A DNA stretch of 64,000 nt, taken from assembly GCA_033980235.1 (NCBI GenBank), contig CM067080.1, positions 1,717,501-1,781,500 on the forward strand, given 5' to 3'. This stretch comes from Diadema setosum. Taxonomy: Eukaryota > Echinodermata > Echinoidea > Diadematoida > Diadematidae. The notes beneath the pieces are model-generated. The model saw nothing but the letters and a program-made list of their open reading frames with translations. It ran no database searches and was not told the DNA's origin. Numbering within the stretch: position 1 is the stretch's first letter; each line of letters starts with the position of its first letter. The position numbers and the translations under genes were made by a program. Shown here one piece after another: positions 3,601 through 40,360 of the stretch.

Positions 3601-3631
<31 letters not shown>

Positions 3632-7060: not shown

Positions 7061-9759
7061 CTGCAGATTAAGATTGAAACCAGTGAATTCATGTGAATGA
7101 TCAGATGAGGGGAATAACTTAGAAAGTCATCTTTCACTATTCCAACACTGTAACTAGCCATCGAACCGTGTACACTGTACCTGTGAATAGAAAAGCATGC
7201 GCTCGTAATTTTTGAATATCATACAGCACAATGTGCACTGCACCTACAACCCGTACAATACAAATTGTGTATGAACTCATTTGAATTGCACAGCACCAGA
7301 CAGTACATGCCATACCAATATTAACAACAACAACAACACCACCAACAACAACATACAAGCATATGTAGCTCAGTCATCATTGTTTAGGTTTTCAAAACTG
7401 AACATATATGCATATATATGTAAATAATATGCAGAATCTAGATCCAATCCGAACTGGAGAAGAGTTGTGGGCAACATACATGTAATCACTTCCTTGCTAT
7501 TAAAACTATTAAGATGTCTCCTCTTCTGTCAAAAAGATAAATGAATAAAAAAGAAAAGATAATCATGATAAAACCACAAAGATAGATTATGAATAAATGA
7601 AAAATAAGCATGGTTTTGAAATAAAGACGAAATACTATGCAAATAACAGGTACAGTACAGTGTATATCTAAACTAGAATTAATACGGAATAGCTACGCTT
7701 TATTAATTGCATTTGAACAATTCAGAATATTCCAAAGAAGAAAACTTAATTTTGGAGGTTTAAAATACAAACACATTTGCTATTCTGACACTCAGCGGCA
7801 ACAAGTATAAACAGACCAAAGTGCAATGTACATTGTAGGGACCTACATTGTACTTGTATAGTGAACTGAGGGACAAAGTTCAAGGCAAAGCCCTCTGATT
7901 CAGATGGAATTATTGGTTGTAACCTGTTATGAAGTACGTACCTCGCAGAACCGATATGGGTCACATATGATGCATGCATATTTACATTCAGCTACAAAGT
8001 TCATCTAATCATGGAACAACATATTGAAATAAATATGTCTTGTATAAATATTACAAACTTCCATAAAATGGTTTGTCCTTGTTACTAAATGTTCATTATG
8101 TCCACATCATCTTCTCCAAGCTAAAAACAGAGCAGTCACATGTGTATTAATAGAGACAAGGTTAGTCGGACTCATGAATGTAATTTACAGCATGTATTTC
8201 AACAATCACTTAATGTGATTGGATACTACTTCCTGCTTACATTCACATGCCATTTGTCAAATAAACTAAAGCCACAAAATAAATCAGCTCTTCCCATATT
8301 CAAAACAGTGTAAAAAACCCAAACACACAAAATATGAGGAACATTGCAATTAAAATGAAACTGTGACTTTTAAAAAAGTATTAGGTACTGCAGGTAGCAT
8401 ATATTTATGGCTCAATTCTTTTGTGTGTGATTTTGAGGGAATGAATTTTTGATCGCCTTGTAATCTGAGTGGTCTACTATTTGCTTACATTACTAATTTC
8501 CTCTCCCACTCACACATTTTTCATGGACATAGAAGGTTACTGAAAAGGCAAAAGCAGACACATTGCCCATGAATATCAGGCATATGTTCAATCAGTCTCA
8601 TTTTCTAAATGGTTGGTGTGATCACCATTGTTGTGTGAAATGTAAGTGAATCATGAAACTTGGAAATGTGTGGATGTGTGTAAACATAATATTCAAATTA
8701 AACAAAGGATGCGATACCTAGTCACAACTATGGGCTCCGAGGTATACCAACATCTACAGCTGTAGGGATATCTCTCAGAGGTTACATGATATTGTAGGAC
8801 AGATTATCTTCATGAGAAATTTGCATTAATTTTTGTCAACACGCATTGATTCCATTGCATTAACTATCATTCACTTCCTCAGTGCAAGCACTAGCTTCTT
8901 TCCAAGGTGGTGACACCTCTTAGTGGAGAGAATCCACAAAACAAAAGGTCATAACAAACATTTCATGATTAGCACAAAAATTTCATCCACATAAGAGAGT
9001 GTAAGAGGGTTTTGATAATTTGTGCTATACTGGGACTAGCTAGACTAGTCCTTCAAACAACACATAGCTAGACTAGTTGTAGGTAGACAGACTGGATTGA
9101 TATAATTGATGTAACACGTCTTTGCCATTTAGCAGTCACTTAAAATGGTGACCCTGCACAAGGGCGCAGTAAAAAATGTCACATTAGACATATGTCATGG
9201 AGAATTCCATGTGTGCGATACGAGTCAACAATCTGAAATGTGACATGAATGTGTAGTATTTTCTGCCACAGTGACATGAAAATAAAGTGAAATTGAGGAA
9301 TATTTTGCATACAAATCCGTTCACCTACCAAGCACGCACACTAAGTTGAGTTTTCTTTTAGGTAGGATCACATAAATTTACAACTCAAAGGAACGACCAG
9401 AATCGACACGACTACCTACTTCCGTATACTAAATGATGGATGCTAAAGATACAAGGTCAAGGTATTGAATCAAAAAGTGGTCGACGAGTAGGACTACTAC
9501 ATTGTAGGTCCAACCGATGTACATTGTATGGAAGTAGAAAAATGTAAACATAGCACCGCACGCACCACCTTTGTTGCTCTTGTTCATTGTTCTTTGAACT
9601 GTTTCTGTGCCTGTGGTGATTTATATTAGACCAGAGACGTTCGACTTTTGAGTTGTGGGTGGTTCCAGACATACTAGTTAAAAGAACTAAGTCACCTTAG
9701 ATGTACTTAGAATTGGTCTCAGACATCTGACTCACTACGGTTTGCACTCCCACCGTTCA
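7061..9759. other. DNAJB11 upstream intron or 5' region, no exon recognised
   Basis: The first DNAJB11 exon (signal peptide, ending two bases into a codon) should lie here or slightly further right. Candidate hydrophobic stretches on the minus strand, near 7800-7860 and 9420-9520, lack either an in-frame start or a donor in the right phase. A minus-strand TATA-like motif (CTAATATAAATC) lies near 9625. No repeat or RNA gene was recognised. Confidence 0.5.
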
Positions 9760-10090
9760 TGAGCGATGACGTCATGTCTCGCTCCGCACTCTGCACGCAC
9801 CGTGCCGTTTCTCCCCTCGTAGCAGACGACGAGAAGCTAGTATCGGTTAGGTGATCGGCTTGCTATCGCTTTCACTGTTGAAAGGCTCTCCCTCATTGGT
9901 CGGATAGTCCTCCCACAATGCATTTCGAAAATGACATCATCGCTTTCTTCCATTCATAAGCTTTCCATTGATACCAAGCAATTCCCACTAGCGATTTGGA
10001 AAACGACCTGATTTTTTCTCGTAATTTCGCCCTTTCTTGTGGAATTTTCCGGACATTTGTACCAGCAGTATGTCAACAAAAGAGTGAGTT
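9760..10090. promoter_or_regulatory. Promoter-like interval between DNAJB11 (-) and RAG1L (+)
   Basis: It contains a perfect TGACGTCA (CRE/ATF-type) palindrome at 9767-9774, a minus-strand CCAAT motif at about 9895-9899, and a CpG-richer stretch at 9740-9860 that contrasts with the surrounding AT-rich DNA. On the plus strand a donor-like AAAAGA/GTGAGT sits at 10083/10084, which could end a 5' untranslated exon joined to the acceptor before RAG1L at 12076. ER-stress genes such as DNAJB11 are commonly driven by ATF6/XBP1-type elements; assigning this site to DNAJB11 is inference. Confidence 0.45.
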
Positions 10091-12076
10091 TGGTCATACA
10101 TGTAATTTTTTGTAGTTGTCGATATATTTTTTTCTGAATTCTCGAGTGTATTCTCAGTGTTTTGATCATACTTCTAACGTGTGCGAGTGTGTGCAACGTA
10201 TGTGCGAGGATGCTTGAGTGCATAGATCAATGTTCAAAATGTGTGATTTCTGCAGCGAACGACCTAACCGATACAATACATTTGAGGTGCGCACCGAGAG
10301 CGAGCGTCGCGCGGAGCTTTGAGTGACCTTGTGGGTTGGCTATTTTTAGACCGAAAGTGATTGTGGCGTTTGGGGCGGGGGGATCGAAGCATAGATGTAG
10401 ATGTTGTTGTGTAAGCACCTCTGTTTTAGCGTTATATGTACTGTCTTCTCTGCTCCCTGACTGCTGAGTAACTGCTGCTGTTCTTCGTGTGTTGTGTGAC
10501 TGACGCGTGTTACAGTATAGGCCTACATGCAATTTTGGCGGGCAGTGTAGTGCATGCAGTGAATGTATGTCTGTCTGTGGCATGTAGTTGTGACTCGACT
10601 GGCCATGACCAAGTGCAATAAATTTTCTGTCAGACTTTTTCAGCTCAGTTTAACGTTTCAGGGTGCCTGTAGCTGTAATAACCATTTTGCACTCTAAAGA
10701 CAAGTACCCATGCATGTCTGTGAAGCTTGAAGTCGATAGAGTATAAAAAAGGGAAACAAAGAAGATAACAAGAATAGGCCCTAAAATAAGTTAACTGTTA
10801 AATAACACAGTGAAAAAGAAAGGCTCTATTTAATGGCATATTTATAGGGAGAATCCAATCAATAGTTAACTATCCACATTGCATTGTAATGTAAACTCTT
10901 TGATTCAGTCTGAATAAACCCTGTCCCTGCCTCTAACCTTAACTGTTAACTGATGAAACAAAATATTTTTAAAGTTACATAGCAGATAATGTTAGAGCTA
11001 TCAGTATAGAGGGGTCTATAACGTTATGAATAGTATCTAGGCTACCGGGCCTACCATACCGGTAATAATAATAAAAAATAATGTTAAAGTGAAGATCTTT
11101 GTCACAGATGTTGACCGCCAGACGTGTGATGTGAATGATTCCCTAACGCTGACAATGTTTCTAAAATTCTACAAGTGCTGTAATGCCAACGAGATTAAGT
11201 GTGACATTATACAATTGTAGTCTATGTTATTAGGCCATAATTAATATCAATTACAGGTAGACTCTAGGTAGCATATTTTAAATTTTTAGTCTCGCTAAGT
11301 CTATCAAGATCCCTTAAACACAGATGAAAAATCTAACGTTACCGGTACCGAGTTCTGGACATGACATTATTCTATTTCTTGTAAATAATTATTAACAGTA
11401 ACACTATTAAACGTACTTTAATGTCGGTTCTATATGAACACTAGATAATAGTATTAATACATGTATCTCTACATCAAGTTTATACTGAATTTGCTAATAA
11501 TAGTATATTTTGTTGTAATTTTTGAGCATTTAGAAGATAGAATTTTTAGTCAACCTCAGTCCGGCTTTGCATCGCTCTCCTTAATTCTTCTACAATTGTA
11601 CATTAGCAACCAACCTTTAACGTTAACTTGTAAATTTAGGTGAACTTTTCCATCTTCATCGTAGACTCTACACAATATAACAGTACTGTAAATAACTAAA
11701 ATGACAACACATGCAATTAAATTTCTAGTGCCATCAGATCAGCCGATCAATAGTCACTTTATTCATTCATTTTTTTTTAAATGTTTGACTTCATATGCAT
11801 ACATTGAGGTCTATTTTTACAGCTATAATAATACAGGATATGTGGGTTTTTTTGATCTCTAGAATCTTGGAAAACAAACGTTGGGGGCAAGGCAAGGGTC
11901 AGGTCCATATCTAGTAGAGCTCCCAGAAGTTTTCCCACAACTTTTAAATTATGGAATGTTGAATTCCGCAGCTGCTTGCATCCTGTGATTTTTACCAATT
12001 GCAGTTAATATGATGAGATGATTGATTGGAAGAAAATAATTTCCTTTTATTTTTTCCTGCTCTTATTTAATTTCAG
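10091..12076. other. Region upstream of RAG1L, probable 5' intron
   Basis: No coding exon was recognised. The first 500 bases are relatively GC- and CpG-rich (for example 10270-10320) and then become AT-rich. It ends in a polypyrimidine tract and TTTCAG at 12071-12076, a convincing acceptor 12 bases before the RAG1L start codon. Confidence 0.5.
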
Positions 12077-12088
12077 ACCCAAGATGGT

Positions 12089-14887
12089 ATGGCTGAAAAG
12101 CATGTGGGTCTTCTGAAGAAAGCATGTAGAGTTTGCGGCAAAGCCAACCTCAAGCAAAGTCTCAACCTACCAGCCTACAAAGATCTTCTGGAAGAGACTG
12201 TCGGTATATGCATAGACGACGATGTAGATGGTATTCACGGGAAGAAAGTGTGTAACAAATGCCGCCACAATTTACTGAAAAGAAAGAAAGACCCTAGCCA
12301 TCCAGTCGAACTGTTCACATTTGAACCGCATGACATAGACTGCCAGTTGTGTTTCAAGAGTAAAGGTAGACCTAAGAAGAGTACCGGTAAGCCTACTGTA
12401 GATGACACTTGCAGTTCTGGATTAGAAAGACTTACGAGTGACATCCCTTCACGTACAGCCCATGTCGTCAGAGATCTAACTGCGGAATTTTCGGAACTGA
12501 CTCAACCTTCTGGTGTTGATTCATCTTCTGCTTCTACAAGCACAGCACCACCAGAAGTTGCAGAGCGAGCTGTCCCAGGTGGAAAATACCCACCGCAGAG
12601 ATTCATACATAATCATTTGGCAGATATTTTAGCGTGCGTAATATGTAATCGTGTTACAGAAAACCCACTGACTGGACATTGCGAACATATCTATTGCACA
12701 GATTGTTACCACCAGTGGTTTTCAACTAGTAGTGTCTGCCACAAATGTAAGTCTATTGTCGTAGAAGGTGAATTTTCAGGAAAGTCAGGGTTAGTCAATG
12801 ATATTATTTCTTCTTTGAAAGTGCAGTGTAGGTATAACGTGAATGGTTGTTCTTATACATGTGAGTTGGCCTATTTGAAACAGCACGAAGTAACTTGTAG
12901 CAAGAAGTTAGAACCTCCTGTCAAAAAAACCTGTCGCAAAAGTGCGTCTCGCACAGGTTGGAAGTCAAAATCACGTCTAACTGACGCAAGGAGAGACTAT
13001 GTAAAAAGTAAGCGGTTAGCCCCTGTTCTATCGCAGATTGACTCTTTTTGTAGTAGAAGAGTAGAGGACAAAACTGACGTTCTTTTTTTTATTTTGATTG
13101 ATCATCTTAGGTGTACAAAAGATAGTAGGTGGAAACAAGTAGATAACGTTTGGCATAATAAGCTTGGGTCACTTACACCAGAGGAGTGCCTCGCACTCAG
13201 AGTTTCATCTTTGCAGAGTAAACAGCAGTACCGCAAACATTATACATTCTTGAAACAGAAAACTGGAGAAGAGGTGCTGAAGCCAGTGGGGATTCTTGAT
13301 GGCGTAGAAAAAACTTTCATGCCTGGCTCTGCCAGGTATGAAATAGGGGGACAAACACCCACTGACACAGTTTCTTTTTATCACACTCCAATAAAGCCAG
13401 TGCCAGGTTCCATAGTTGTCGGAGAGAGCTCATATGAGCCAATAAATGTTCGAGAACTCTATCACAGACAGTACCCAGAGAGAAAACGTGCTGAATGTAC
13501 AGCAGTTAGGTGGCCTTATCCAAGTGCTGTAGCAAAAACCCTAGAGGAGTTAGATCCTCAAATCCAGGAAGGCCTAAAGAAAGGGGGGATCGATCCACGC
13601 GATGAAAATGTAGAATTCACAGTTCTGATTAAAGATGGTTCAGATGGGATGGGAGATGTGTCGGTTTACAAGGAAAAAAGCGACATATTTCTTCCTGACA
13701 AAGCATTTCGTTCTAGTTTTGCCATTTTGCGCATTGAGGCTATCCGCCAAGTAGGAGGCAACATTGTTGTTTTCGAAGAAGAAAAGCCCAATTCAGTTAG
13801 ATGCAATAGACCTTTGCTGGAAGGGATTGGTGATGAAAATAATATCTTAACAGCAAGTTTGTTGCAGATTCCTATCGAGGACGAGAGAGAATTTCTCAAG
13901 GGGAAAGTTCTGAAAGTGTGGTGTTTTGGTGTATGGAGACGGTTCTACTGTAAGTTTTTCAATTCTATGATAGACGAAAAACTAGATAGAGCTGAAGGCG
14001 GGCTTGCTGGCAGTGGATCCAGGTACTTGTGCACTTTGTGCACTGCTACTCGGGAGAGTAGCAAGTCTGAACTAGGTTCTTTTACAATTAATAGAACCTA
14101 TCACATGACTTCAGCGATCGCTGATTATATTCGTGTCAATCCGGATAAGCTTTCAAAAGCTGAGCTGGATGGGCTGTCACTCGGTGTGAAACAGCGTCCA
14201 TTGTTAAAGTCAGACGCTGAGGCAAAGCTTCTGGATGCCACACACGCTGACATAAATCTCGGCATTTTCTTTAAGAAAATTATTGTCAGAGAAATTGCAG
14301 CAGTTCAAAAGTGGGAGTTGACCGAGGATATCAAAGGTCTAGTTGAGCATGCCGAGCACAAATTTGATGCTCACATCAGGAAGCATGTGGGATCAGCTCC
14401 CCAGCTTATGATGCCAGGAAACTACGCAAGACAGTTGTTTGCTGAGAAAAATGCCAATGTCATCCTTGCACTTATTCCTAGTGAGGAAAGACGGGAGCAT
14501 TTGGCAGTCATTATGGAGAAATTTCGTTTGCTCCGTTCCGTGTACCGTGCGCATTCGCCACGTGTCACACATGCCCGGGAACTGCGCCAGTACAAGGTTG
14601 TCGCGGTGCAAATGGGCAGGGAGTTGATCTCTCATTTCGACTATGTACCATGGCCCAATTACCTACATAAGGTCATAGAGCACCCTCAGGAAATCATCGA
14701 GAACGAGGATGGACCTGGGTCAGTTGGAGCCATTAGTGGAGAGGGCAACGAAGCCAGCAACAAGCTCTTCCGTCACATGAGGAAGAATCTGTCACGGAAG
14801 GGTAAGGTACTTCATGGGCTTCGAGATGTGTTGTGGCTGCATTGGCTGTATAGTAGCCCCAAACTCATACGCTTATCAAAGGTTTGA
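12089..14887 (+). CDS. RAG1L: RAG1-like recombinase/transposase (RAG1L), 932 codons
   Basis: Homologue of vertebrate RAG1, the endonuclease subunit that cuts DNA by nick-and-hairpin chemistry. N-terminal Cys pairs lie at C13/C16, C55/C58 and C85/C88. A C3HC4 RING follows at about 183-220 (CVIC, HCEHIYCTDC, CHKC), then a C2HC finger (C247, C254, H266, C270). The catalytic core spans about 320-925. By comparison with RAG1, the acidic triad is D519 (SDGMGD), D629 (MIDEKL) and E888 (GEGNE). Zinc ligands are C648/C651 (CTLC) and H860/H865 (NYLHKVIEH), and the C-terminal WLHWLYSS matches the family end. Spacing of the triad (110 and 259 residues) fits vertebrate RAG1 (108 and 254). The frame is intact in one exon and slightly shorter than the ~1040-residue vertebrate protein. 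An in-frame stop at 12068 and the acceptor at 12071-12076 favour the ATG at 12089, though an upstream coding exon is possible. RAG2L lies convergently 8 kb downstream. Confidence 0.96.
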   Translation: MAEKHVGLLKKACRVCGKANLKQSLNLPAYKDLLEETVGICIDDDVDGIHGKKVCNKCRHNLLKRKKDPSHPVELFTFEPHDIDCQLCFKSKGRPKKSTGKPTVDDTCSSGLERLTSDIPSRTAHVVRDLTAEFSELTQPSGVDSSSASTSTAPPEVAERAVPGGKYPPQRFIHNHLADILACVICNRVTENPLTGHCEHIYCTDCYHQWFSTSSVCHKCKSIVVEGEFSGKSGLVNDIISSLKVQCRYNVNGCSYTCELAYLKQHEVTCSKKLEPPVKKTCRKSASRTGWKSKSRLTDARRDYVKSKRLAPVLSQIDSFCSRRVEDKTDVLFFILIDHLRCTKDSRWKQVDNVWHNKLGSLTPEECLALRVSSLQSKQQYRKHYTFLKQKTGEEVLKPVGILDGVEKTFMPGSARYEIGGQTPTDTVSFYHTPIKPVPGSIVVGESSYEPINVRELYHRQYPERKRAECTAVRWPYPSAVAKTLEELDPQIQEGLKKGGIDPRDENVEFTVLIKDGSDGMGDVSVYKEKSDIFLPDKAFRSSFAILRIEAIRQVGGNIVVFEEEKPNSVRCNRPLLEGIGDENNILTASLLQIPIEDEREFLKGKVLKVWCFGVWRRFYCKFFNSMIDEKLDRAEGGLAGSGSRYLCTLCTATRESSKSELGSFTINRTYHMTSAIADYIRVNPDKLSKAELDGLSLGVKQRPLLKSDAEAKLLDATHADINLGIFFKKIIVREIAAVQKWELTEDIKGLVEHAEHKFDAHIRKHVGSAPQLMMPGNYARQLFAEKNANVILALIPSEERREHLAVIMEKFRLLRSVYRAHSPRVTHARELRQYKVVAVQMGRELISHFDYVPWPNYLHKVIEHPQEIIENEDGPGSVGAISGEGNEASNKLFRHMRKNLSRKGKVLHGLRDVLWLHWLYSSPKLIRLSKV

Positions 14888-15200
14888 GTACAGTGTTCTG
14901 TTTCTCATATTCTGTTTCACCAGAATTGACATTGGTACATTGTATGTATCTGCATTTGCAAGTTGTGCATACAGTACATACATTTTGAGTTTGAATTGTT
15001 CCAATATTTACAGACCTGTATGCTTCTTTTCCTTGGAAGGTGCTTTTGATGCATGTCACATGTTTGATTTACATTTTGATTATCATTATGGCACTTTGCC
15101 TGATGACAAGACTTGCCTGACATCTCTGCCTATCTGCTTCTGGTCGACTGATTTTGCCTGCTTTGACATTGTTTTTATGTGCTGATCCTGATTTTGCCAG
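14811..15200 (+). repeat. RAG1L 3' end, first copy of a ~390-bp direct repeat
   Basis: This segment holds the last ~25 codons of RAG1L plus its 3' flank (TTCATGGGCTTCGAGATGTG, then 'gacattggtacattgtat', then 'tttgcctgctttgacattg'). It recurs almost unchanged at offset 390. Confidence 0.85.
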
Positions 15201-15600
15201 TTCATGTGCTTCGAGATGTGTTGTGGCTGCATTGGCTGTATAGTAGCCCCAAACTCATACGCTTATCAAAGGTTTGAGTACAGTGCTCTGTTTCTCATAT
15301 TCTGTTTTACCAGAATTGACATTGGTACATTGTATACATGTATCTGCATGTGCAAGTCGTGCATACAGTACATACATTTATTTTGAGTTTGAATTGTTCC
15401 AATATTTACAGACCTGTATGCTTCTTTTCCTTAGAAGGTGCTTTTGATGTATGTCACATGTTTACATTTTGATTATCATTATGGCACTTTGCCTGATGAC
15501 AAGACTTGCCTGACATGTCTGCCTATCTGCTTCTCGTCGACTGATTTTGCCTGCATTGACATTGTTTTTATGTGCCAATACATGTACCGAATTACATGTA
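15201..15600 (+). pseudogene. Duplicated RAG1L C-terminal fragment and 3' flank
   Basis: The segment begins TTCATGTGCTTCGAGATGTG, and the following ~65 bases repeat the RAG1L terminal codons (DVLWLHWLYSSPKLIRLSKV and stop) with very few changes. The copied 3' flank follows, with small insertions. It carries no start, core or catalytic residue, so it is a non-coding duplicate. It is the first unit of a longer decaying series of related repeats that extends towards RAG2L. Confidence 0.85.
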
Positions 15601-16609
15601 CATGTACATTGTATACTTGTCTGCATTATCATTTTGAATTGAACTTGTCTTGCAAGATTTTGCATGACTCAAGACCAAGAGTAAGAAGATATTTTCTCTT
15701 CTGTACTATCAGAGGTACACGTAAATTTTGTAAGCCCCATTTTTGATGATCATACTATTTTGATTATCGATATGACCATTTTGTATCCCTTCAGGACAAG
15801 ACTTCCTATGGCATCTTGACCTATCTGCCGGTCATCAATTGATATCGCCTGCATTGACATTACACGTGTGCCGGTAGTACTGAAGTACAGTACTGGTCAA
15901 CTTGTACATATATGTACACGTCATTTCACACTGCATATCTCAAAAGTCATCAGTATTCAAGCATATGTAAAGGGGATCATTACTCACTGTACTGCCTATA
16001 AAAGTGCTAGTGATGTGAGCTCTATGTTCAACGATGTACAAGATGTATGGTACATGTTTTCAAATGACCATTTTATGTCACCAAATGACAAGCCTTCCTG
16101 GCATCCCAGCCATCTTGTGGACAGATTTTGCCTGCTTTGACATTGTTTGTACTGGATGTATTGTACAGCACAGTTGTACGGAATAGAAAGTGTACATAAC
16201 AAGTACTTATGTTGTATACACAGTACGTGCATGCATACAATGTACAATTTCCTGAGAATTGTTCTGCGGATCAAGATTAAGAGAAAGATGATACATTTAT
16301 TCACTCACCTGTACTTTCAAAGTTGTGCAAGGTGTGCAAAATTTGAGTGATACATTTGAGTACGGATTGATGTGAAGTCATGTCGTTTTGTGATCTGGAA
16401 CTTTGCCACTGCCTGCCACTGCCTGCCTCAGCCCGCCTCAGCCTACGTATCTGCCTCTCGATCATCATTTGACTTTTCCTGTGTTGACATATTCATATGT
16501 CAGCCCATGTACAGTGAAGTTTGGTTCACTTGTACGCGTTGTACACATGTACAATGTACGACATGTGTATTATCATTTTGAGCCGAAATTGTTCTACAAG
16601 CTTTTCCTG
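15601..16609. repeat. Diverged repeats derived from the RAG1L 3' flank
   Basis: Degenerate versions of the 3'-flank words (TTTTGCCTGC..TGACATTG, GCAAGATTTTGCATGACTCA, 'catgtacatgtac') recur here near 15655, 15850 and 16130. No coding signal. Confidence 0.6.
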
Positions 16610-18010
16610 TTTGTTTGACTGCCATGATTAGAGTAAACGGATGTTTACTCTTTTTTCTTTTCTTTTTTTGGCTATCAAAAGTGCATAAGTATGTTTCCTC
16701 ATGCATGATTATGTACAGTGTATAAGGGTGATAGTTGTTGACTTATCGATATGAGATTTGATATTGCTTCGCGATAAGACTGCTGCCCCCATAAAAGGAG
16801 GCATACTGTATCCGTCTCTCATCGATTGACTTTGCCTGCTTTGCCATTCTCTGTATTTTTATGTGTCAATATGTGTACCTATAGGTACAAGTTGACTTCC
16901 ACATGTGCATTTGTTATACATGTAGGCCTACATTTTGACTTTAATTGCCTGCTTTGCCATTCTCTTTACTTTTATGTGTCAATATGTGTACCTATTTAAG
17001 GTACAAGTTGAGTTCTGCATGTGCATTCGTTGTACATGTATTATGTATTTTCAGTTGGAGTTGTTTTGCAAGTTTTTTGCACTGCCATGATCAAGAGTAA
17101 ACAGAAGTTTACTCTCTTTTTTTGCTATCAAAAATGCTTGTACATGTACATTCCTCATGCATGATCATGTACAGTATATTTTGATATTTATCGATGAGAT
17201 TTGATATTGCTTTGTGATAATACTTTGCCTGCTTTGCCATATTTCTATGCGTCGATACCTGTTCTTTGAATACTTAAGGTACAAGTTGACTTCTGCATGT
17301 GCATTCGTTGTACATGTATTATGTATTTTCAGTTGGAGTTGTTTTGCAAGTTTTTTGCACTGCCATGATCAAGAGTAAACAGAAGTTTACTCTCTTTTTT
17401 TGCTATCAAAAATGCTTGTACATGTACATTCCTCATGCATGATCATGTACAGTATATTTTGATATTTATCGATGAGATTTGATATTGCTTTGCGATAATA
17501 CTTTGCCTGCTTTGCCATATTTCTATGCGTCGATACCTGTTCTTTGAATACTTAAGGTACAAGTTGACTTCTGCATGTGCATTCGTTGTACATGTGTTAT
17601 GTATTTTCAGTTGGAGTTGTTTTGCAAGTTTTTTGCACTGCCATGATCAAGAGTAAACAGAAGTTTACTCTCTTTTTTTGCTATCAAAAATGCTTGTACA
17701 TGTACATTCCTCATGCATGATCATGTACAGTATATTTTGATATTTATCGATGAGATTTGATATTGCTTTGCGATAATACTTTGCCTGCTTTGCCATTCTA
17801 TGCGTCAATACCTGTACTTTGAATACTTAAGGTACAAGTTGACTTCTGCATGTGCATTTGTTGTACATGTATTATGTATTTTCAGTTGGAGTTGTTTTGC
17901 AAGTTTTTTGCACTGCCATGATCAAGAGTAAACGGATGTTTACTCTCTTTTTTGCTATAAAAAATGCTTGTACAAATTGTACATATTCCTGTGTACGATA
18001 ATGTACATTT
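16610..18010 (+). repeat. ~278-bp tandem array with internal hairpin
   Basis: The words GAGTAAACAGAAGTTTACTC and 'ttgcctgctttgccat' recur. Successive 'acagaagttt' positions are 17101, 17379 and 17657, a constant step of 278, with flanking units at about 16636 and 17932 slightly diverged. Each unit holds a GAGTAAAC..GTTTACTC inverted repeat followed by a run of 6-7 T, a ttgatatttatcgatgagat segment and several TACATGTAC palindromes. Central units are almost identical, indicating recent homogenisation. Confidence 0.9.
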
Positions 18011-18048
18011 TGAGTATATCAATGTGAGATTTTATATCGCTTTGTGAT

Positions 18049-18085
18049 ACCAAGGAGGTACTAGCCTGTGTAGTACCTCCTTGGT
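18049..18085. repeat. Hairpin, 14-base perfect arms, 9-base loop
   Basis: ACCAAGGAGGTACT at 18049-18062 pairs with AGTACCTCCTTGGT at 18072-18085. It lies at the end of the tandem array. A related CCAAGGAG palindrome occurs at 35564. Confidence 0.85.
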
Positions 18086-21000
18086 GATACTAAGACTTTG
18101 TCACCTGCATTTAAGCATGTCTGCCTCTCATTCATTGATTTTGCCTGCATAGACATTGTTGTCACAATGTTGTAAATACAGTTCAGCAGAAATTGCTCTG
18201 CAGCACTTGTGTGCACATCAGCAAGAGTAAACTGAGTCTGCTCTTGAGGATCATCGTTGTTGTTTGCTTGCTTAGTGAACAAAGAGACATTTTTCTTTTC
18301 AAGGAGTATTTTAGACAGAAGTGTACCTTTCCAGCATTGGTCATTGATATTTTGTAGATATTGACATCTCAAGCATCTCTGTGGCTGCGACCTTGTTTCT
18401 TTAAAAACACAATCGTTGCCTACATTATCATGATCATGCACCAGCAAGATGACACTGGTTGGTGCCAAAGTGCATGAATACTACTATACATCGTACATGT
18501 TCATAATGATTCTTGATAATGCTTGACAGTTAAGCGGCCATTTTTGTCTGGTTTTGCAATTGATGTTATACATCACATTAGGCATTGCTCCTTTACAAGG
18601 CTGTGCATACATGAACTGTACATTTTGTTCATGGCACATAGCTATTAATATTTTTTTGCTTTTTACGTTCTTGTCCATCCCATCTGAACCATCATTCGAT
18701 CATATCATGAAGGAGCTACGAGTACAATTGTACAGCGTTTATTTTCACGTACCAACCACTGTACAAGTGTATTTGTAAGCTCTGCCTTCTCTTCTTATTT
18801 TATCTTGTCAGTATGTATTTGTCATTTTCAAATGTACAGTATACTGTAAACTACAATGTACTGTACTCTTTTACAAAGGCTCCGTTTTCTCTCTGGGTAA
18901 TTTAATTACATTGCTATACAATGTAGATCTGTATTTTCCTTCTTTGAACTTGCAATAGCTGGGCAATTCTGCGGTTACTACCATTTCATTGAAAGAAATG
19001 TAGATATTTATTTTTACTGCTAAATCACCATTTATTCATTTCAAGTAAAAATCATTTTAAAAGCATGTTCTTCCTTCCCAGGTTTCATAGAAAAGAATGA
19101 GTACAATCCAATAACTATTACAATTGCTATGGCAACTAAAAGGGCTGGTATGTTGCGAAAAAAGGACATGACAAAAAAAAAATAATGTCTTAACAAAAAG
19201 TGTGCAAAATTTCAAGTAACTTCAAACAAAGTGTTGCATTAATTTCAATGATCAGGACAAATGGTCATGCAAATGTTTTTAGCAGTTCGACCAATAATTT
19301 ATTAGCTAGACCCCAAAATGCATGGTTGGTAACGTTACGGTTAGAAACGTTACAGTTGTCCAGAGTAATTCTGCAGGTCATTTCACCCTTTTGTAATTGA
19401 CAAAATGTCACATGACTTATGGAGTATTTAAATGTATTCCCATTTTTACCTTTTAGCAAAAAATTGAAGAAATTTTTTCAAAGCAGCCACTGTAATTTGT
19501 ATAAATGAATTTCATCATCCCCAGTCCCACATGTACATTTTAAATGATGGTTTTATATCTCTCAAGATCAATAAATACTAAGAATAAAATCTAGTGAATT
19601 TGAAAGACCTTAGTGATTGGTGAACATCCATGGCATTACTTAATACCTAAATTATAGAGCTAGAGGCCCATTTCTTTCATCCATGTCATGTCCACCCAAT
19701 TACCAACTGCGGGATTGCCCAGCTACATATTGCATCCTCATACAGTGTACATGCACATGTATAGTTGTATGATCAGAGTAACCGGTACTGGCATATTCAT
19801 GATTTTATTATGTACAGTGTTGTACAATGAATTTGTATACATAATGAAGGTACACTGTACATGTTGTGTATTCCCAGTTTTGCACACAAATGCATGAATA
19901 ACATGTACAGTCAGTGTAAATGTAGCTTTGCATGGTGTAAGTGATTGGTTATTTGCTGTGTCACGAGGTACAACATGTAATGTACCGGTATGTTGTATTG
20001 TACTCTGCAAATTACTTGTAATATGAATGGGTACTGCACATGAACTGTGAAGTGTATGTCAGGATGGTGTTAGTCTTTTACATTGTACCTCCCTGATACA
20101 ATTTTGTAGGAGTACAGTCTGTACAATGTGTAGTACAACAGTTTGTATACATGTCACATGTACATGTATCAGCAATCCTTTTCAGTGCAGAGAGGATACA
20201 GTAGCACAGATTCACTCTTACTACATGTACTATGTTCAGTTACATGTTCATTGTTGTAAAGTTTACACGGTATATCGAACTGTACGTACACTGTACAATG
20301 TACTGGCCATATGATGCACTTTGTAAATAATTTTTTTCCCCTATTGTTTACTTGAGTTGATTTTGTTCTGCAAGATTTTGGATTAATTAGACCAAGAGTG
20401 AACTGATGTTTTACTCATACTGCCAAAGGTACACACTGTATTACCGAGTTCCTTGTTTGGTACAATTTGCTCACATTTTGAATATAACCACTTTATGACA
20501 CAACTTTATCTAGCACCTATATGCTTCTCCAATGGCTCCTCATTGATCAAGTTTGCCCACATTGACTTCATTTTTGTGAATGTACAGAACAGTGTACTGA
20601 CTGAAGTCACATTAAAAATCTATTTTATAAGACATTTCCCTCTGCTTTGACACATTTTATATGATTTTCACTGTTCCTACATGTTTAAGCAAGACTTGAG
20701 ATCAAGAATATACTGTACATGTATTGCATGTACGTGTATACGCTTGCTCTCTCTTGTCGCTGGAGATGCTAACATTTGTACAAAGTCACAGCGTTTACAA
20801 TGTAGTTGTGTATTCTATTAAGAATGTCATTCACAAGTACTTGAATTGCTGTACATGTACATTGTTTAACATGTTTTTGTGGCACAGATAGTGGGCAAAA
20901 ACAGTGTCTACCCCACTGTGTAGAGGATTGCTTTCCAAGAGGAAATGAGACTACATTGTAGAATGAGAAAAATTATTGTTGAATACGGAATTTGAAACCA

Positions 21001-22856
21001 ATAATGTACCTGGAAAGCGAAATTGATATGCAAGTCAGTGTTGGCAGGAAAAAAAAGAAAGAAAAGAAAAGATCTTTGAGGAGGGCAAGTGTCACATTTG
21101 CAAGTTTACAACACCTGTTAGCCTGCATGCAGCTCATTGTACATTTGTGTGTATTTTGCACACTTGACATTACATTGCATTGTGACACACTGTATGTACA
21201 GATACACTAAGTGTTTGTCACTGTCTTCAACCAATGAACAAATTGTGGCAGGGTTTTGCTTTTTTTGAACATTGCCAAATGTGAATTTTGCTTATGTTTT
21301 CTGAAAAAGCTTTCATGTATTTGTACATTTTGGAGTGAAATTTGACAGTTCTGCAGGTATACCAAAACTATGTTTTACCTTTAATGATCGATGTTAATGT
21401 GACAACAGGCTTTTCTGTGCCTGTGACCTTGATGTAATTCTCTCGTTGAAAGTGGCAGACATGTAGCCTATTCTTATGTGATTAAAATTGGAAAAACCAA
21501 ACACTGAATCTTTTGATGCAAACAGTATAGGTTTCAGAAGATACAATCCGCTCACACACTCAAACACAAAGACAAAACAAAGAGTAACATGCATAGATAT
21601 GAACCTGAAAAGAGAATACAGTAGGCAGATTTCTGATTAGATATTGACTGGCTGTATTTTCTGCGTGTGACCTGGAAAAGTTGAAATACAGTTGTACATG
21701 CAGATTATGCTATACAAATGCACAACATGTATGAATATATGTGTATTCATAAATGCATGTTATCTTCTTTTGATGCATCACATGTCCATTAAGAGTACAG
21801 TCCAACCTTAAGTGGCTACTACAGTTGTATTAAGGAAAACCTGCCTATACCTGCAGCATTCATTGTTCCTGTCATCCACTTTATTAGGCAAGAAAATGTA
21901 CATTTTGCTGAAGTTCAGTTAAATTCATGCTTAAAAGATAACCTTGTGATCTTGAACATGAGTACAGCTGTATGAATGGGCATCGCGTCGTGTGTGCCCC
22001 CCCCCCAAAAAAAAAAAACAACAAAACAAAACAAAAAACAACAAAACAAAGCACATTTCTGACATAATTTGAAAACTGGAAATTGATAGAAATATCAAAT
22101 GCCAGTAGAACTTTAAATTGTATACATGTATGGGAGATCATCCTAAATTTTGGAATTCAGCAAACCCAGGCATGTGCTTATCAAACATTATTCTGTTTAG
22201 TTACATGTACAGCTGTACACAATCTGTACACAATGGGTAACTGTTACAGCAGGCAGGGCGTACTGCACTTAACATATACGATGTACAGTGTTTGCACTTC
22301 ACAGATTATCTGTACCTGAATTGTATTGTGCAGTCTTGTTTTGAAAAAGCTGTGATGTGCTCACAATAGAGACAGTTACATTTTTAAAAAAGTGAGCAAA
22401 ATAGTGTAAGACTTGAAAAAAAAAAATGTTTGTGCTGAGCCAAAGCAGCTTTCTTTTTTTTCCCATACTAAGTAATGACACTTCATACGAACAAGGAATA
22501 CAATGTACCTGTGCTCTAAGGTGTTGTTACTCCGCATGAAATCAAACAAAATTATTTTTATTGTGTACACACTGTACACTGTATACTGGTGTATAATGAT
22601 TTTCAAAGAAAAAAAGCTAACAGAAGGAAACAGTATTGGACTTTCAGAAGATAGTGTAAATACTGGTTTATCAGAGTTGTAAAGTGTCAGTGGTGAAGGG
22701 GTGTCACCATCCATATACAGTACATGTACTAACATTGTAATTGTACATTATGCATAGTACATGTACAACATTGCACCGTTACTTTGTATTGTAAATTGAA
22801 ATGTGTATTACATGTACATGTCATGGCCGGCAGAACGGGGGGGGGGGGGGGGGGGG
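18086..22856. other. RAG1L-RAG2L intergenic remainder
   Basis: No gene recognised. Two more decayed units of the 3'-flank repeat are visible at about 18200-18245 (CAGCAAGAGTAAACTGAG) and 20365-20420 (CCAAGAGTGAACTGATG). The stretch is extremely rich in TGTACA and ACATGTAC words (for example 19740-20310). A poly-G tract of about 22 bases at 22836-22856 directly abuts the duplicated RAG2L end. Confidence 0.55.
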
Positions 22857-23397
22857 TTCATCTCTGAAAGTATCAAGAGTTTAACGCCTTGCTTTGCACA
22901 ATGGACAAATGTACTTCTTTGGAGCTCGTTTTAGTTTCACACAGAACATGTGAAACCACTTTTTACACTTGTCACAGTCAATCCATGATATTCCTTGGTC
23001 ATCACAGTCTTCAATGTTGCATTCAGGCAGTTCACATGATGGCGGTGTAAAATCTCTCCCTGTAAGTAAACAGAATTGCTTAGATGTTCCACCCATCACA
23101 ATGACACAATCTTCCTCCAGAACGTGAGATGTGTGTCCAGCTGTTGCAAAGTCATCACTCACTGTATCTGGTAATTTCTTGCATGTCTTGGCCATGGGAT
23201 CCAACACGTAGACAGCAGAGGAAATGTTAGGTGACTGGTTATAGTCTGTATTCCTTTCATCTTCTTGATGGTAACCACCTATAACTAGTATTTGGTTGTT
23301 TAGAATTGTGCAGCTGTGAAAGGAGATGAAGGTGATGTCCAAGGGAGACATGTCCAAGATGACATTTCGAAGTGAAAATGTCATGACGCCTGAGATG
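22857..23397 (-). pseudogene. Extra 3' copy of the RAG2L terminal exon (kelch 5-6 plus PHD)
   Basis: These 541 bases match 23401-23941 with an offset of 544 and a 3-base spacer (GCG); I see no mismatch. The copy encodes RAG2L residues from about 290 to the C-terminus, including a full PHD finger, in an open frame. It lies downstream of the RAG2L stop codon and has no splice acceptor of its own. Its far end abuts a poly-G tract. It is either a very recent tandem duplication or an assembly artefact. Confidence 0.85.
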
Positions 23398-23424
23398 GCG
23401 TTCATCTCTGAAAGTATCAAGAGT

Positions 23425-26162
23425 TTAACGCCTTGCTTTGCACAATGGACAAATGTACTTCTTTGGAGCTCGTTTTAGTTTCACACAGAACATGTGAAAC
23501 CACTTTTTACACTTGTCACAGTCAATCCATGATATTCCTTGGTCATCACAGTCTTCAATGTTGCATTCAGGCAGTTCACATGATGGCGGTGTAAAATCTC
23601 TCCCTGTAAGTAAACAGAATTGCTTAGATGTTCCACCCATCACAATGACACAATCTTCCTCCAGAACGTGAGATGTGTGTCCAGCTGTTGCAAAGTCATC
23701 ACTCACTGTATCTGGTAATTTCTTGCATGTCTTGGCCATGGGATCCAACACGTAGACAGCAGAGGAAATGTTAGGTGACTGGTTATAGTCTGTATTCCTT
23801 TCATCTTCTTGATGGTAACCACCTATAACTAGTATTTGGTTGTTTAGAATTGTGCAGCTGTGAAAGGAGATGAAGGTGATGTCCAAGGGAGACATGTCCA
23901 AGATGACATTTCGAAGTGAAAATGTCATGACGCCTGAGATGAACGAAGTGCTGAGAATCATTGCTTCATTAATTGGCATGCGTTTGATAGGAAATGCCCC
24001 TTCATACTGAACTCCCCCCACAAGTACTAGTTCTCCAGTGTCTTCCATGAATGCAGCTGAATGAAAGCATCTGCCCTTTACTTCTGGAATTGATGCTATG
24101 TGATTCCACCTGTAGTTGTCCCCATGAAGAAGATAGAATTTACCATCATCACAAGATGGGGTGAACCTATCTCCTTGGCCTGGTGAATAACAGTCTCTGT
24201 GTTTGTAGCCACCAAAGACGACAAACTTGTCGTTTCCTATCTTTGTGAATGTGTGACCAGCCCTACCTGTAGGAGAAAAAAGCAAATTTGAAAAAGAACC
24301 AGTTTGTTGGTTTTATTAAAGTGTATTGACAGATGTTACTTTTATTTTTGTTCTTTTCTGTTTGCATGTCCATGTATATATGTTATTAAATATGTGTTTT
24401 TGCTCTGTTACTGTTTAAGATGTCCGTTGTATGAATAAACCGTGGTCCAAGAGTTATGCGGAATATTACTGTTCTCGAGAACTGTTGTGTATATTTGTTT
24501 ATTTTGTGATATGTGTTCTTTGTATTTGATGATGAATGATTCCAGTGTAATTCATAAGTCCAAATTATTTGCAGTGTGTATCAAAAGTTGATGACAAGTG
24601 TGCATATTAATAAGATGAAATCTCAATGAAATCTCAATTGTTCAATCTACACACAGTTTCTAAAACTTTACATACAACTCCACATTTACATCAATATAAG
24701 CTAATACTATGTACCTGATGGAACATTGCCTCCTTGAAAACAAAGCGGTTTTCCCTTTTTGCTGGGTGTGGCACTCTCCTCTAGTTGCACGGTTGTTATG
24801 TCGAAAGATGGTGATTTTGCCGATTTAGAGGTCTCTTTGATGACATAGAGGTCCTTTGATGAAGTGCTGTTGAAACTGAGATCAAGTCCTCCCCATACAA
24901 GTATGTCTCCAGTTTGTCTGGCAGCCATTCCATGAGACTGGAGATATGGTATAGTTGAACCTAGGAGAGGTACACGCAGGTACATTGTATGTTAGTGAAA
25001 ACATTAATGAAATATCACACACCCATGATTTTGTCACATATTTGTCTGTGATATTTATTTCTAATTGATAATCTGTTGTACAAAACAATGAAATAGTTTA
25101 TGAGAATAATCAAACCAAAACACTTGCTCTAATGAAAACAAAAATAAAATCCATTAAAAACAGACTGATTGTAGTTCAACAAGCATTTCCCCTAGGCGCT
25201 TTGCCGAGTATACCCCGGACTCGGACTCGCCCCGATGGGCTAAAAGGGATGGTACAGTTTCGGTCGAAATCGGCTCCAGGTTTCCAGCGCTTTTTGATGA
25301 TTTTGCAAGTTTGCGCATTTGTTTGACTTGGTTGTAAACTGTTTTGTCCATTTAGTTTTTTGTTGTTTTTCTTTAAATATACAAATCCATGATGAAATAA
25401 ACTATGTATGTTTGTGTGGTAAAGAAATATGTGATGATGTGTACCGTAGTGTTCACACAGGACACAGGCTTATGTCATCTCACCATCAGACACTGTGTGA
25501 AGATAACATTTACAAAGTGTGTGTGTGTTTGTGTGTGTGCGCATGTGTTTGCCTGTGTGTACAGGCAGTCAACCTTGCCTAAACAGTGGAGCCCTTTTGA
25601 ACTGAAGAAATGCAATGAAGCTTTCATTCCACTGAGAGGAAATTCAATATATGAAGGATCAGAATCAGTGGAATGAATCACAATATGAAGGATTTGTAAA
25701 GACCTTTAACTTAGGCGATTATTTGACTAATTAAATGCGAGGTTGAGGTACATGTAGCAAGATTATCTGTTAGTATCTATATGTATTAATACATTATACA
25801 TACAAAGTTTTATATCCTAATCTATTTTTACTTCACATAAATGATGTGAAAAATAAAACAAGAAACATACCACTTGTTCTGCAAGTTACAGCAGACATTA
25901 TTTCAACGTCGTCCTCACTAAGTTTCACCCGTACTTCCACCAGGTTTGATGAAAATGGTATGGATGCTGGCTCCCCTGTTCGTGATCCACCTAAAAAGAT
26001 GAAACGTTTTTCCTCCTCGCGTTCACTGTCTAACAGAACACATGTGTGCCCTTCTGGTGGATAGTAATTACCTAGTTTCAAAGCAAAGTGATGACTGCTT
26101 TGGGAAATTTTCCCCTTTTTTTCAATGCTGGCCTTAAGTGGGAGGTATTGCAAGGTATCCAT
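23425..26162 (-). CDS. RAG2L: RAG2-like protein (RAG2L), 459 residues, three exons
   Basis: Homologue of vertebrate RAG2, the non-catalytic partner that stabilises RAG1 and reads chromatin. Exons are 26162..25871, 24960..24715 and 24266..23425. Both introns split a Gly codon (G/GT), keeping the frame: RTSG-STIPY and VPSG-RAGHT. Six kelch double-glycine motifs form the blades: GG58-59 (FIFLGGS), 121-122 (LVWGG), 198-199 (VVFGG), 263-264 (LVGG), 328-329 (VIGG) and 390-391 (VMGG). The C-terminal PHD finger has all eight ligands: C414, C419, C429, C432, H437, C440, C452 and C455. The sea urchin RAG2L PHD finger is reported to bind methylated H3K4. The ATG at 26162 follows an in-frame TGA. Vertebrate RAG2 is ~527 residues, so this protein is shorter, mainly in the acidic hinge between kelch and PHD. 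It converges with RAG1L as in vertebrates. Confidence 0.95.
24961..25870 (-). other. RAG2L intron 1
   Basis: Bounded by AGTG/GTATGT and CCTAG/GTTC on the minus strand. It contains a CpG-rich island of about 110 bases near 25190-25300 and a (GT)n-rich stretch at 25518-25560. No exon recognised. Confidence 0.7.
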
Positions 26163-28150
26163 CCTTCATCATTGAAGTCCACAGAGCAAGTGATTAAGTC
26201 ATGTTTTCCAATGAAGGTGATGTTTAGAGTATATTTTCCTTAATCCCAACTTTCAGTGATAAGCCAGCTATGGGCAAGTCAACAGAACACTTTCCAAGCT
26301 ATGGTAGCGCCACAAACAATTTCCTAGTCTTATCAAGACCTCTTCCCCTCCTCAAATAAACCAGCAGAGTGGCCATAATCAACTTTTTGTTTGAGGAAGA
26401 TGAGAGCTTGGGGAGGGGGCAGTAGCAAGGCAAGGAAGATGTGGAGTATACATATGCCCTTTTTACATAGAGGGATGCAGCCAAATATCATCAGTGACAT
26501 CTTGGGAGATTAGTGACTCCAAGTACAATGTACTCCCGTGATAACGAACACGGTTATAATGAAATTCCAGGTACAACAAAGTAAAAACTCGAGCCTCAAG
26601 ATTATCCTCTCTATTTATTTTCATTGTTTGGTTACTGTATATCGAAATTTCAATATAAATGGAAGGAAACTGCCAATCCTGAAGACTTCATTACAATGGA
26701 AGTCCACTGTAGCTTGATTGTCAGTCCCTATGTTTGATAATTTCATATTTGAATATGAAGCTTATTCCCTATCATCAGCTTCCAATCACAAATTCATTCA
26801 GCTTGTTTTTATTGATCCATGCTGCTATTTAATAGATATCTCAAATCAATGAGACATCTTTGTCAAATAGTGTACAGCTTGTACGGTACTAATTAAATTC
26901 TGAAAAAATCTGCAGTCAATTGAAGGAACCAAACATGAGACTTTGTATAGTTATTATAGGCTTACCTAGTGTTCCAACTTAATTTAGGGCCTATTTGAAA
27001 AACACATTGTCATGAACATTGCTGTAGGCCTATACTTTGTCTATAGATCAGGCGATATTAAACAGTGTACTTGTAGGCCTTATTTGGCTGGGGACCCGTA
27101 AAAAAGTTTTTCAACATCTAAAATCTGGAGTGGAACACAATATTTATAGTGCAGTGTTGATAGTTTATAGTTGATAGGCCTATATTCTATATACGTCCTA
27201 TAATTACAGAGAACAGTTGTCAGTTTCATGAAAGTCTTAATACCAGTATGACACTCTTCATGCTAATGGTCGCGTTTATGAAATTCACCTTACTCCTCAG
27301 AAGCTACACAGAGCAAGTTCATAGCCATTCTGAAAATGTATTTTAAGATGTTTATGTGATCACTTTATGAAACTGCTTTCATGAAGCCTCTCTATTTAGT
27401 TTGTCTTATGAAAGAAAAGTCTCTCGTATGACTTTCGTAGAAACGGATTCCATATATTGAAATTGTATAGATCTGTTATTTGCTGTTAAGAGTATTGCAA
27501 TTCATCTTCTAAAAGGTATTATTGTTCAGTCAGTAGTTTCTATTCAATTCAATTCATTTCACAGCAGCATGACATCTGTGTGCGTGCAAGCACAGAAATG
27601 TCATGCAATATGTTGGTTTAATTTTTTGTATGACGATTTCCTCGTGCATGCCAGCATCCACACCGTACTGAATACAGTACTGTACTAGTAGTTTGCAGGC
27701 ACTAACCCTTGTTGGTCGAAAAGGAGTCTGCGTCAAGACTACTACATGCGTCACCTTGCAATGTGTGTGTTGTGCAAGTGTGTTTGCTTGCAGGAAGAAG
27801 CTCCAACACAGGTTGTTGTTGTTGTTTTTGTTAGGGTAATGACGCATGTATTAGTCTTGGAGCAGGCTCCTTTTGACCAATAAGGGGTTTGCGCCTGGAG
27901 GTGTGAGAGTACACGTACCTCCCTCCCTGACTACAGTACGAGTACATGTACCATGCATGCCACCCAGTGCAGTAATCTCAGAAAGAGCATGTTACCTCCC
28001 TGGTTGTTACATACAGCCACTGAACTCTGTATACAGCGCACGGCAAATGCACTGCGCAATGACCATGGGAATGCCAGTACAGTACGGCACTGTTCCTGTG
28101 CAGTGCTTGGGTTCACCAACACACACAGACACACACAGACACACACAGAC
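26163..28150. other. Upstream flank of RAG2L, nothing recognised
   Basis: AT-rich DNA without convincing exons on either strand. The RAG2L promoter or a 5' untranslated exon should lie here or in the GC-richer block just beyond. Confidence 0.4.
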
Positions 28151-28198
28151 AGAGATAGACACACACAGACGCAGACACACACACACACACACACACAC
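28118..28198. repeat. (CACACAGA)n / (CA)n microsatellite
   Basis: Alternating CACACAGA units grade into pure CA. Confidence 0.95.
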
Positions 28199-28239
28199 GG
28201 TAGTGCTAGCATATGCACACTCCATGTGCCACTGCAGAG

Positions 28240-28530
28240 CCGCGGCTTAGCCAATCAGCAATGAGGTATCGTCCTGGCAAGCGCACAGCGGAGAGAGGAG
28301 AAGAGAGCTCGAGAGGCCGAGATATTTTTAGCTCAGCTCTCCCTCTGCTGCGATCGCACAGCGATAGTCAAGATCTCGATACTCTCAGAGCAATCGGGAG
28401 TGAGAGGCTCGAGCGGCTTGAATTCTCGGTTCGTTCTGGGCAGTATGAATCATTCATGCATGGGATCTGCGCTTGCGCAGTGTTGACCAAGGCGCTGCTT
28501 AAACTGTGTACATGGCCTATGGGAGCCAAA
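28240..28530. promoter_or_regulatory. CpG-richer, promoter-like block upstream of RAG2L
   Basis: GC/CpG-rich for this window, with a TGCGCTTGCGCA motif at 28468-28479 that resembles an NRF1 site, and purine-rich stretches. It lies about 2.1-2.4 kb upstream of the RAG2L start codon. A 107-codon plus-strand frame spans it but shows no recognisable domain, so I do not call it a gene. Confidence 0.35.
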
Positions 28531-30482
28531 CCGTAGTGTGACTGACTGATCACCTCCTGATCTAGAGTAGAAAATTAGACCACTCTACTAAATTATACTG
28601 TTTCAACTTCAAGTTCACGATGCATGTGTGTCAACTGTGTAGTGTCACTAGCTGTGTAGCCCAACGTCGTGTCCTACTTGAGTAATTTACAACGTGCATA
28701 CACAAGCCAAGTGAACATCCACTGCACTGGCACTGGTACGGGTAGGCCTACGTTTTTTTTTTTTATAAAGGCCTAAACTATAGTATACACGGGTGACAAA
28801 AATACATTCACTCTTGATATTCCAGCCAGGTGAAGCTGGCACTATCATGTTAGCTGTTAGATCTAGTGCTTTTTCAAGATTTAGTATTAAATCTAACCAT
28901 ATCAATCATTGTCAATAGTATCATTAGTCACATTACATTGGCCATTAGGCATTAGTACGACTATGGTCTAGTATGCGTCCATGAGTAATGACGATTACGA
29001 GGCCACACGAATTAGAATGAGTGGGACTGATATGGCGTACTCTACGAGTCTTCTTATTCCTAGATATTTGTTGAAAGGTTCCCATGTCCTAAACAGAAAT
29101 AAAACTCCGCTTACTCACCCTGCTAATACAGTGATGGAAATCTGTAATAACAACAAACATATATTCCACGTATAAATGGCCATCTCGGCAACTGGATATA
29201 CTAGTTATACCGGCACGCCAGTGTAGTCCCGAATTACCGTGTTACACATGCAGGATTGATACACAGTCAGTGGAGTGACACTTGCGATACGTGACTACAC
29301 CACACTGTACGCGATCATCACCCGTCCACCCTTTCCACGAACTCAACGATCATTCGTCGGTTGTGTGGTCCAATACACAGTCAGCGCAGCCGCAGTTGTC
29401 TCGGCCACACCGGAATACACAGTCTACGTACACGTTGTACATGACATTTTCTTCAGTTGTTTTGTCAAAATTCAATAAACTGCACGTTATTTGGTGATCG
29501 TCACTCATAGCGACTGGAAGTATATCATTACATCTGTGAATATGATGACGTAACAAATATAGCAAGTGTTTGTTTCGTGTTCATGTTTCCATCGATGTAG
29601 AAATATTTTTTAAACGAACACATCAGCCAGTTTGACACTCATTCCGAACATATTATTTCGCCCAATGATGACAATACTGTACCTGGGAAAGTCTACCACA
29701 ACATGTGATATCAACACTTATTTACTCATTCTCGATTAACGAGACATTAAACAAATATCCCTATTTCTGCTGAAATGATCGTTGTTGAGCATGATGATAA
29801 TGATATCACCACTATTATCTATTCAAATAAGATTGAAAATTGATATTTGAGTTAATATGACAACGTTGAAGTTTATATATTACGAATGTGAAAACTTCGC
29901 AATAAGCCTATCACTGGCGACTTAAGCTACAATACAGTCAGATATCAAATATCAAAAGAATAAAGTGAGATTAGGCCTATAATTATCCATATTAATTTGT
30001 AAATTCTACTGATGGATCAGTCATTAAAACCAAACCAACAAACAATCTAAGCAAACACTCTGTGGATATGTTAGTATGTGAATGAAGGAGCTACATATTC
30101 CAAAAAGAATACAGGAATACAAGTTGAACATTTTACTGTAATTTGACCCAATTTAAGTTGTAGAGGACTATTTGAAAGTGTGAAAACATTAAATGTTACA
30201 AACCAAAGGAACGTGTCATAAAAAGTGTCTGTAATTATTGCAAGTTGCAGCAATTGCAAACACGGATAAGTCCAATGTTTCCATTAACTTCAAAAGAAAG
30301 CAAAGCAAAACAACACAAAAAAAAACACAAAAAAACAAAACTAAGAATACCTACATGGATATATAAGTTTCATTGTGCCCACTGGTATCAGTAGAAATAA
30401 GTACAAAGTACAAATAACCAGACAAGATGAAGATGGAAAGTCTGGAATATGCCTGAATGTCTGTAACAGACAATGCACCTGT

Positions 30483-30525
<43 letters not shown>

Positions 30526-31815: not shown

Positions 31816-31848
<33 letters not shown>

Positions 31849-36514: not shown

Positions 36515-36576
<62 letters not shown>

Positions 36577-40289: not shown

Positions 40290-40322
<33 letters not shown>

Positions 40323-40360
40323 TTACATTTATATAGTTATATATAACTCTTTTTACATTG

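Follow-up and report, generated by a model that had tools for sequence, protein, structure and literature searches.

A convergent RAG1-like and RAG2-like gene pair in the sea urchin Diadema setosum, probably the cargo of a RAG-like transposon

RESULTS

Identity and Layout of the Gene Pair

The DNA analysed here, a 64,000-nucleotide stretch of the Diadema setosum genome that we call the window, contains a RAG1-like gene (RAG1L) and a RAG2-like gene (RAG2L) that converge tail to tail with 8.5 kb between them (Table 1). A preliminary description of this DNA had claimed intact, linked and convergent homologues of both genes here, and each of these points holds: the ORFs, Pfam and the closest solved structures identify the two homologues, coordinates and strands bear out their linkage and convergence, and both genes have open frames, and RAG1L retains its catalytic residues. 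Set against the possibility of a non-RAG transposase, which that description had raised, the closest matches proved to be RAG1L and RAG2L.

The RAG1L protein matches the Pfam RAG1 family with an E-value of 3e-81, the RING match being weak, and among solved structures its best match is amphioxus RAG1L (6b40, 593 bits), followed by mouse RAG1, aligned over residues 25-926. The catalytic residues Asp-600, Glu-662, Asp-708 and Glu-962 and also His-795 (mouse numbering) are kept, as are the zinc residues, and positions 649 and 848 carry the transposon-type Val and Met where vertebrates have Glu and Arg. The RING and the zinc finger that follows it align ligand by ligand with those of mouse RAG1 (ZDD) and of P0001, a protein of 986 residues with both RING and tail that was the one match returned by protein searches for further RAG1L. 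The tail motif itself, Cx2Cx3GHx4C (CTT), was found neither in the RAG1L ORF nor in six frames of the window and the element. A TTTCAG just before the RAG1L ATG, at a site shared with a relative at C4:21.40 Mb, implies a 5' exon, which was not found. A structure prediction for RAG1L from a four-sequence alignment gave a mean pLDDT of 41.8 and was set aside.

The RAG2L gene lies on the minus strand and consists of three exons with GT/AG junctions that encode 459 residues from an ATG at 26162. Its best match among solved structures is amphioxus RAG2L (6b40, E = 2.7e-23), and its PHD finger fits the ligand pattern of invertebrate RAG2L. The acidic hinge of the vertebrate type was not found, as the PHD follows directly after the propeller, and only 6 of the 45 residues leading up to and into it are acidic. 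The last RAG2L exon is partly duplicated in tandem, the duplication spanning window positions 22853-23941. Separately, one 0.8-kb repeat in the spacer is common to the interiors of two different RAGL elements, that of the window and that on C14.

Table 1. Features of the RAGL pair, its proposed element and related elements elsewhere in the genome (positions without a prefix are those of the window)
Feature	Position	Strand	Remarks
Putative left TSD, TGACT	9728..9732	.	
Putative left TIR, CACTACGGTTTG	9733..9744	+	RAG1L side; similarity continues with a 1-nt gap (CTCCCA)
Proposed whole element	9733..28538	.	18806 bp
TTTCAG, splice-acceptor-like	12071..12076	+	Just 5' of RAG1L ATG; by eye
RAG1L	12089..14887	+	932 aa; single uninterrupted coding exon (ORF, Pfam, structure-relative search)
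RAG1L start codon	12089	+	Uncertain; GTG at the equivalent place in the C4:21.40 Mb relative
RING finger (C3HC4) of RAG1L	12635..12748	+	Residues 183-220; followed by a C2HC-like zinc finger
RAG1 catalytic core (Pfam RAG1)	13001..14866	+	RAG1L residues 305-926
Tandem duplication, RAG1L 3' end	14811..15575	+	14811-15182 versus 15201-15575, 94% identical
278-bp tandem repeat	16996..17974	.	3.5 copies; spacer between RAG1L and RAG2L
Spacer repeat, ~0.8 kb	18958..19723	.	81% identical to C14:7153533-7154327, inside the C14 element
Tandem copy, 3' part of last RAG2L exon	22853..23397	-	1 mismatch in 545; downstream of RAG2L stop
RAG2L exon 3 (Kelch repeats, PHD)	23425..24266	-	Kelch and PHD domain matches
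RAG2L PHD finger	23440..23580	-	Residues 409-455; computed from exon table
RAG2L exon 2	24715..24960	-	
RAG2L exon 1 with ATG	25871..26162	-	
Putative right TIR, CACTACGGTTTG	28527..28538	-	RAG2L side
Putative right TSD, TGACT	28539..28543	.	
C1 element	C1:3393013-3409400		TSD CTGCA on both sides
C20 element	C20:17163486-17179865		TSD CCGTA on both sides
C14 element	C14:7150622-7167397		Same ends as C1/C20; TSD GAGAA
Fourth RAGL lineage (C4b)	C4:27276357-27290853		Open RAG1L core and CTT

The preliminary description had placed DNAJB11 and a paraoxonase cluster next to the pair; a DnaJ domain was matched to its left and arylesterase (paraoxonase) domains to its right, three of seven ORFs giving such a match above the curated cut-off. 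The arylesterase exons are repeated over window positions 39990-56207 and form a tandem gene cluster, and a minisatellite-like array of diverged repeats occupies 36789-37963. Published RAGL pairs are placed beside DECR1/RHPN1 in S. purpuratus and H. pulcherrimus (PMC9885083, PMC4411706) and within an intron of the Ecp2 gene in L. variegatus (PMC4411706). The window pair is not at the DECR1/RHPN1 site, and the published sites thus differ from that of the window, as expected for mobile DNA.

RAGL Relatives Elsewhere in the Genome

A search of the genome (885,718,524 bases in 96 contigs) found at least 53 stretches that match RAG1L (49 of 85 candidates scored). Two of the relatives, on different chromosomes (C1 and C20), are 99.3% identical over 16.4 kb (BLAST). 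Of 16343 aligned sites 43 are substituted, 24 indels separate the two copies, and their identity breaks off sharply at either side, at CAC-type ends (CACACTGGAACA and CACAATGGTACG). That they are an assembly copy of a single site was ruled out, because their flanks and duplications differ. Their RAG1L genes have three exons, encode 836 residues with no stops and are identical to each other; their RAG2L exons are open, with identical frames in exons 2 and 3. A third copy, on C14, has decayed, with two stops in RAG1L and no recognisable RAG2L in its interior. As near-identical copies with different TSDs, the C1 and C20 elements have transposed recently. They demonstrate RAGL mobility in the D. 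setosum genome, and relatives of RAG thus appear to have been mobile in a sea urchin in recent times.

The fourth lineage (C4b) has a RAG2L match with one frame change. The pair CACGTTCAACTT/CACGTTCAGCTT beside TTGTC, with 12 of 16 matches, is retained only as a candidate for its ends and not as established termini, such a score being common by chance. RAG1L fragments on C9 and C6 gave terminal pairs no better than 5 bases. The nearest relative of the window RAG1L is the copy at C4:21.40 Mb, and its decay fits a transposon lineage.

Six elements were scanned for domain patterns. The RING was present in two, that of the window and the C4:21.40 Mb relative, and the Cx2Cx3GHx4C tail in four (C1, C20, C14 and C4b); the C4:21.40 Mb match ends near residue 894, so that the tail cannot be judged there. 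PMC7204232 describes the CTT as present in essentially all invertebrate RAG1L, though not as defining, and the ZDD as absent from echinoderm RAG1L; PMC9885083 has the ZDD missing from all echinoid RAGLs studied and also mentions a P. lividus N-terminus that includes it. With its RING, the window RAG1L is an exception to the published absence of the ZDD in echinoderms. A tree of six core sequences (528 columns, with C20 omitted as identical to C1) groups the window with C1 and C4b (support 78) and leaves P0001 outside (80), and is too small to assign the window to RAGL_A or RAGL_B. Given this grouping, the simplest reading is that the RING would be ancestral and lost in the C1/C4b branch, and that the tail would have been lost in the branch of the window.

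Ends of the Window Element

The preliminary description had seen by eye neither terminal inverted repeats (TIRs) nor a 5-bp target-site duplication (TSD) around the pair. This does not hold: a search of the flanks (2000-12089 and 26162-40000) for CAC starts in inverted match with an identical outer 5-mer returned four pairs. In the best of them, at 9733/28538, all 12 of 12 bases match and the 5-bp TSD is perfect. Both ends begin CACTACG, which does not fit the heptamer CAC(A/T)(A/G)TG proposed earlier, and a scan of the flanks for the canonical heptamer gave no convincing pair. When these flanks were simulated, an exact run of 12 with a matching 5-mer arose by chance once in 2000 first-order runs and three times in 3000 second-order runs. 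Among 984 comparisons of real sequence from unrelated places it never occurred, the longest run there being 10 (comparisons among C1, C20 and C14 were excluded, these being a single family). The distance from start codon to the adjacent end is 2356 bp for RAG1L and 2376 bp for RAG2L.

Several observations weigh against these ends. Looser scores are reached more often by chance, as at least 12 matches in 16, their order ignored, occurred in 129 of 2000 simulations, and when a gap was allowed, 4 of 3000 simulations and 6 of the 984 real comparisons scored at least as well. Three other CAC pairs also have a matching 5-mer, the best of them (5021/28228) with 11 of 16 matches, and in the C14 element, used as a positive control, the ungapped score fails to put the true pair first, two false pairs scoring as high or higher. 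The ends of the window element were absent from the other RAGL loci compared, the decayed C4:21.40 Mb relative having no visible ends, and the ends of the C1 family match within the window only with 2-3 mismatches. Taken together, we regard the 12-bp pair and TGACT as the probable ends of the window element.

Selection and Age

The alignment of window and C4:21.40 Mb RAG1L contains 72 gaps; over 689 codons, with stop codons skipped, dS is 0.68, dN 0.10 and dN/dS 0.15. Protein selection thus acted for a long time on both lines, and the C4 copy decayed later. The ratio for C1 against C14 is 0.21, so that a value of 0.15 cannot tell a host gene from a transposon. Under simulated neutral change, the window ORF stayed open in 5 of 2000 runs at 5% and in none at 10%, which in this model shows selection on the ORF if it is that old, selection on a host gene and on a transposon not being separated. 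In a simple independence model, the 34 unchanged letters of the TIRs and TSD are very unlikely for an insertion as old as the split at dS 0.68, and the preserved ends thus suggest, under that model, an insertion younger than the split.

DISCUSSION

We consider it probable (roughly 0.7) that the window pair is the cargo of an 18.8-kb RAGL transposon whose insertion site has a DnaJ gene on one side and a paraoxonase cluster on the other, and we take the locus for an architecturally unusual copy of a RAG transposon rather than for a demonstrably settled host gene. The preliminary description is thereby upheld in its homology, linkage, convergence and intactness but not in its hint, drawn from the missing termini, of a settled pair, against which stand the CAC-type ends, the TSD and the other RAG transposons in the genome.

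The movement of RAG and ProtoRAG elements proceeds by binding of the ends, nicking, hairpinning and joining with a 5-bp stagger. If the window pair is such cargo, RAG1L would be a transposase of the DDE type that works with RAG2L as its Kelch-PHD partner, and a RAG1L dimer with two RAG2L would, by analogy with ProtoRAG and RAG, bind both CAC ends. A nick at the CAC would be followed by hairpins on the flanking DNA and excision of the element, and the freed 3' ends would be joined to a new target at points 5 bp apart, leaving the 5-bp duplication. This scheme draws in part on PMC7204232. The duplications around C1 and C20 are the footprint of this joining step in the D. setosum genome, and from the window element's own footprint we infer that its lineage may have moved in the same way. 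Against a transposon stands the lack of the CTT in the window RAG1L, which raises doubt over the present mobility of this copy; one paper calls the CTT critical for full activity of amphioxus RAG1L.

This loss is central to the alternative that the pair was domesticated, captured by the host from a RAGL transposon recently enough for the ends to be readable; losing the CTT would have cut the use of transposon ends, and RING and PHD would have been kept for a role in the host. The C1, C20, C14 and C4b relatives all keep the tail that the window lacks, the window holds the only full-length copy of the RING-bearing subfamily among the matches listed, its dN/dS against the C4:21.40 Mb relative is low, and domestication has been argued for other sea urchin pairs (PMC9885083, PMC8355894). 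However, the TIRs and TSD around the window pair are intact, the residues at positions 649 and 848 are of the transposon type, and a low dN/dS is equally expected of a transposon lineage that kept moving, as the C1/C14 value illustrates; we therefore think domestication unlikely. That the terminal repeat is a coincidence, the real ends having been lost long ago from a locus that, as in S. purpuratus, is settled or turning into a fossil, is very improbable, for although an exact match is expected by chance about once in 1000 simulations, and neither inspection by eye nor the heptamer scan had found anything canonical, no such match occurred in the 984 real comparisons, both ends have the RAG-type CAC start and their spacing from the start codons is near-equal.

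Beyond a transposon carrying its genes, a more speculative and doubtful picture is of RAG domestication half-way. The pair would still have its transposon ends, its RAG1L would combine the vertebrate-like traits of a retained RING, a lost CTT and a single coding exon, and it may be of use to the host, whose nucleus also houses a recently mobile family that lost the RING and kept the CTT. Our search of the openly accessible literature returned nothing on RAG genes or RAG transposons of Diadema and nothing on recent mobility of RAG transposons in any sea urchin; three papers (PMC8355894, PMC9435367, PMC9885083) call sea urchin RAGL pairs silenced, fossilised or domesticated and regard their transposition as unlikely. 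The two near-identical transposons of D. setosum, with open frames, ends and TSDs, thus point to an animal host in which RAG transposition may be ongoing and could be assayed. The RING-bearing window RAG1L also means that loss of the ZDD did not extend to every echinoderm. Because RING without CTT and CTT without RING occur naturally in one genome, what each domain does can be put to a direct test.

Among known systems, ProtoRAG of Branchiostoma belcheri resembles the window element in its convergent RAG1L and RAG2L, CAC ends, 5-bp TSD, Val-649 and Met-848; the RAG1L cores are 48% identical and both have the ZDD, whereas the end sequences differ and amphioxus has a RAG2L without PHD and a RAG1L with CTT, the reverse of the window (amphioxus domains after PMC7204232). 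The TransibSU/RAGL_B elements of S. purpuratus, H. pulcherrimus, P. lividus, L. variegatus and the bat star share the convergent pair with a PHD, and that of the bat star also has a TIR and TSD (PMC4411706). Papers report that echinoderm RAG1L has no ZDD or RING and that TIRs are missing in sea urchins, whereas the window has both RING and ends; D. setosum is a diadematid echinoid outside the four species whose genomes were screened for RAGL in PMC9885083. Jawed-vertebrate RAG1-RAG2 is likewise convergent, with a RING/ZDD, no CCHC tail and an uninterrupted RAG1 coding exon, but the window lacks Arg-848, Glu-649 and the acidic hinge of RAG2, has TIRs, and is only 36% identical to mouse in the core. 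The C1, C20 and C14 elements share with that of the window the genome, gene order, CAC ends and 5-bp TSD, and differ from it in a RAG1L core that is 48% identical, in having three exons, no RING and a CTT, and in their end sequences.
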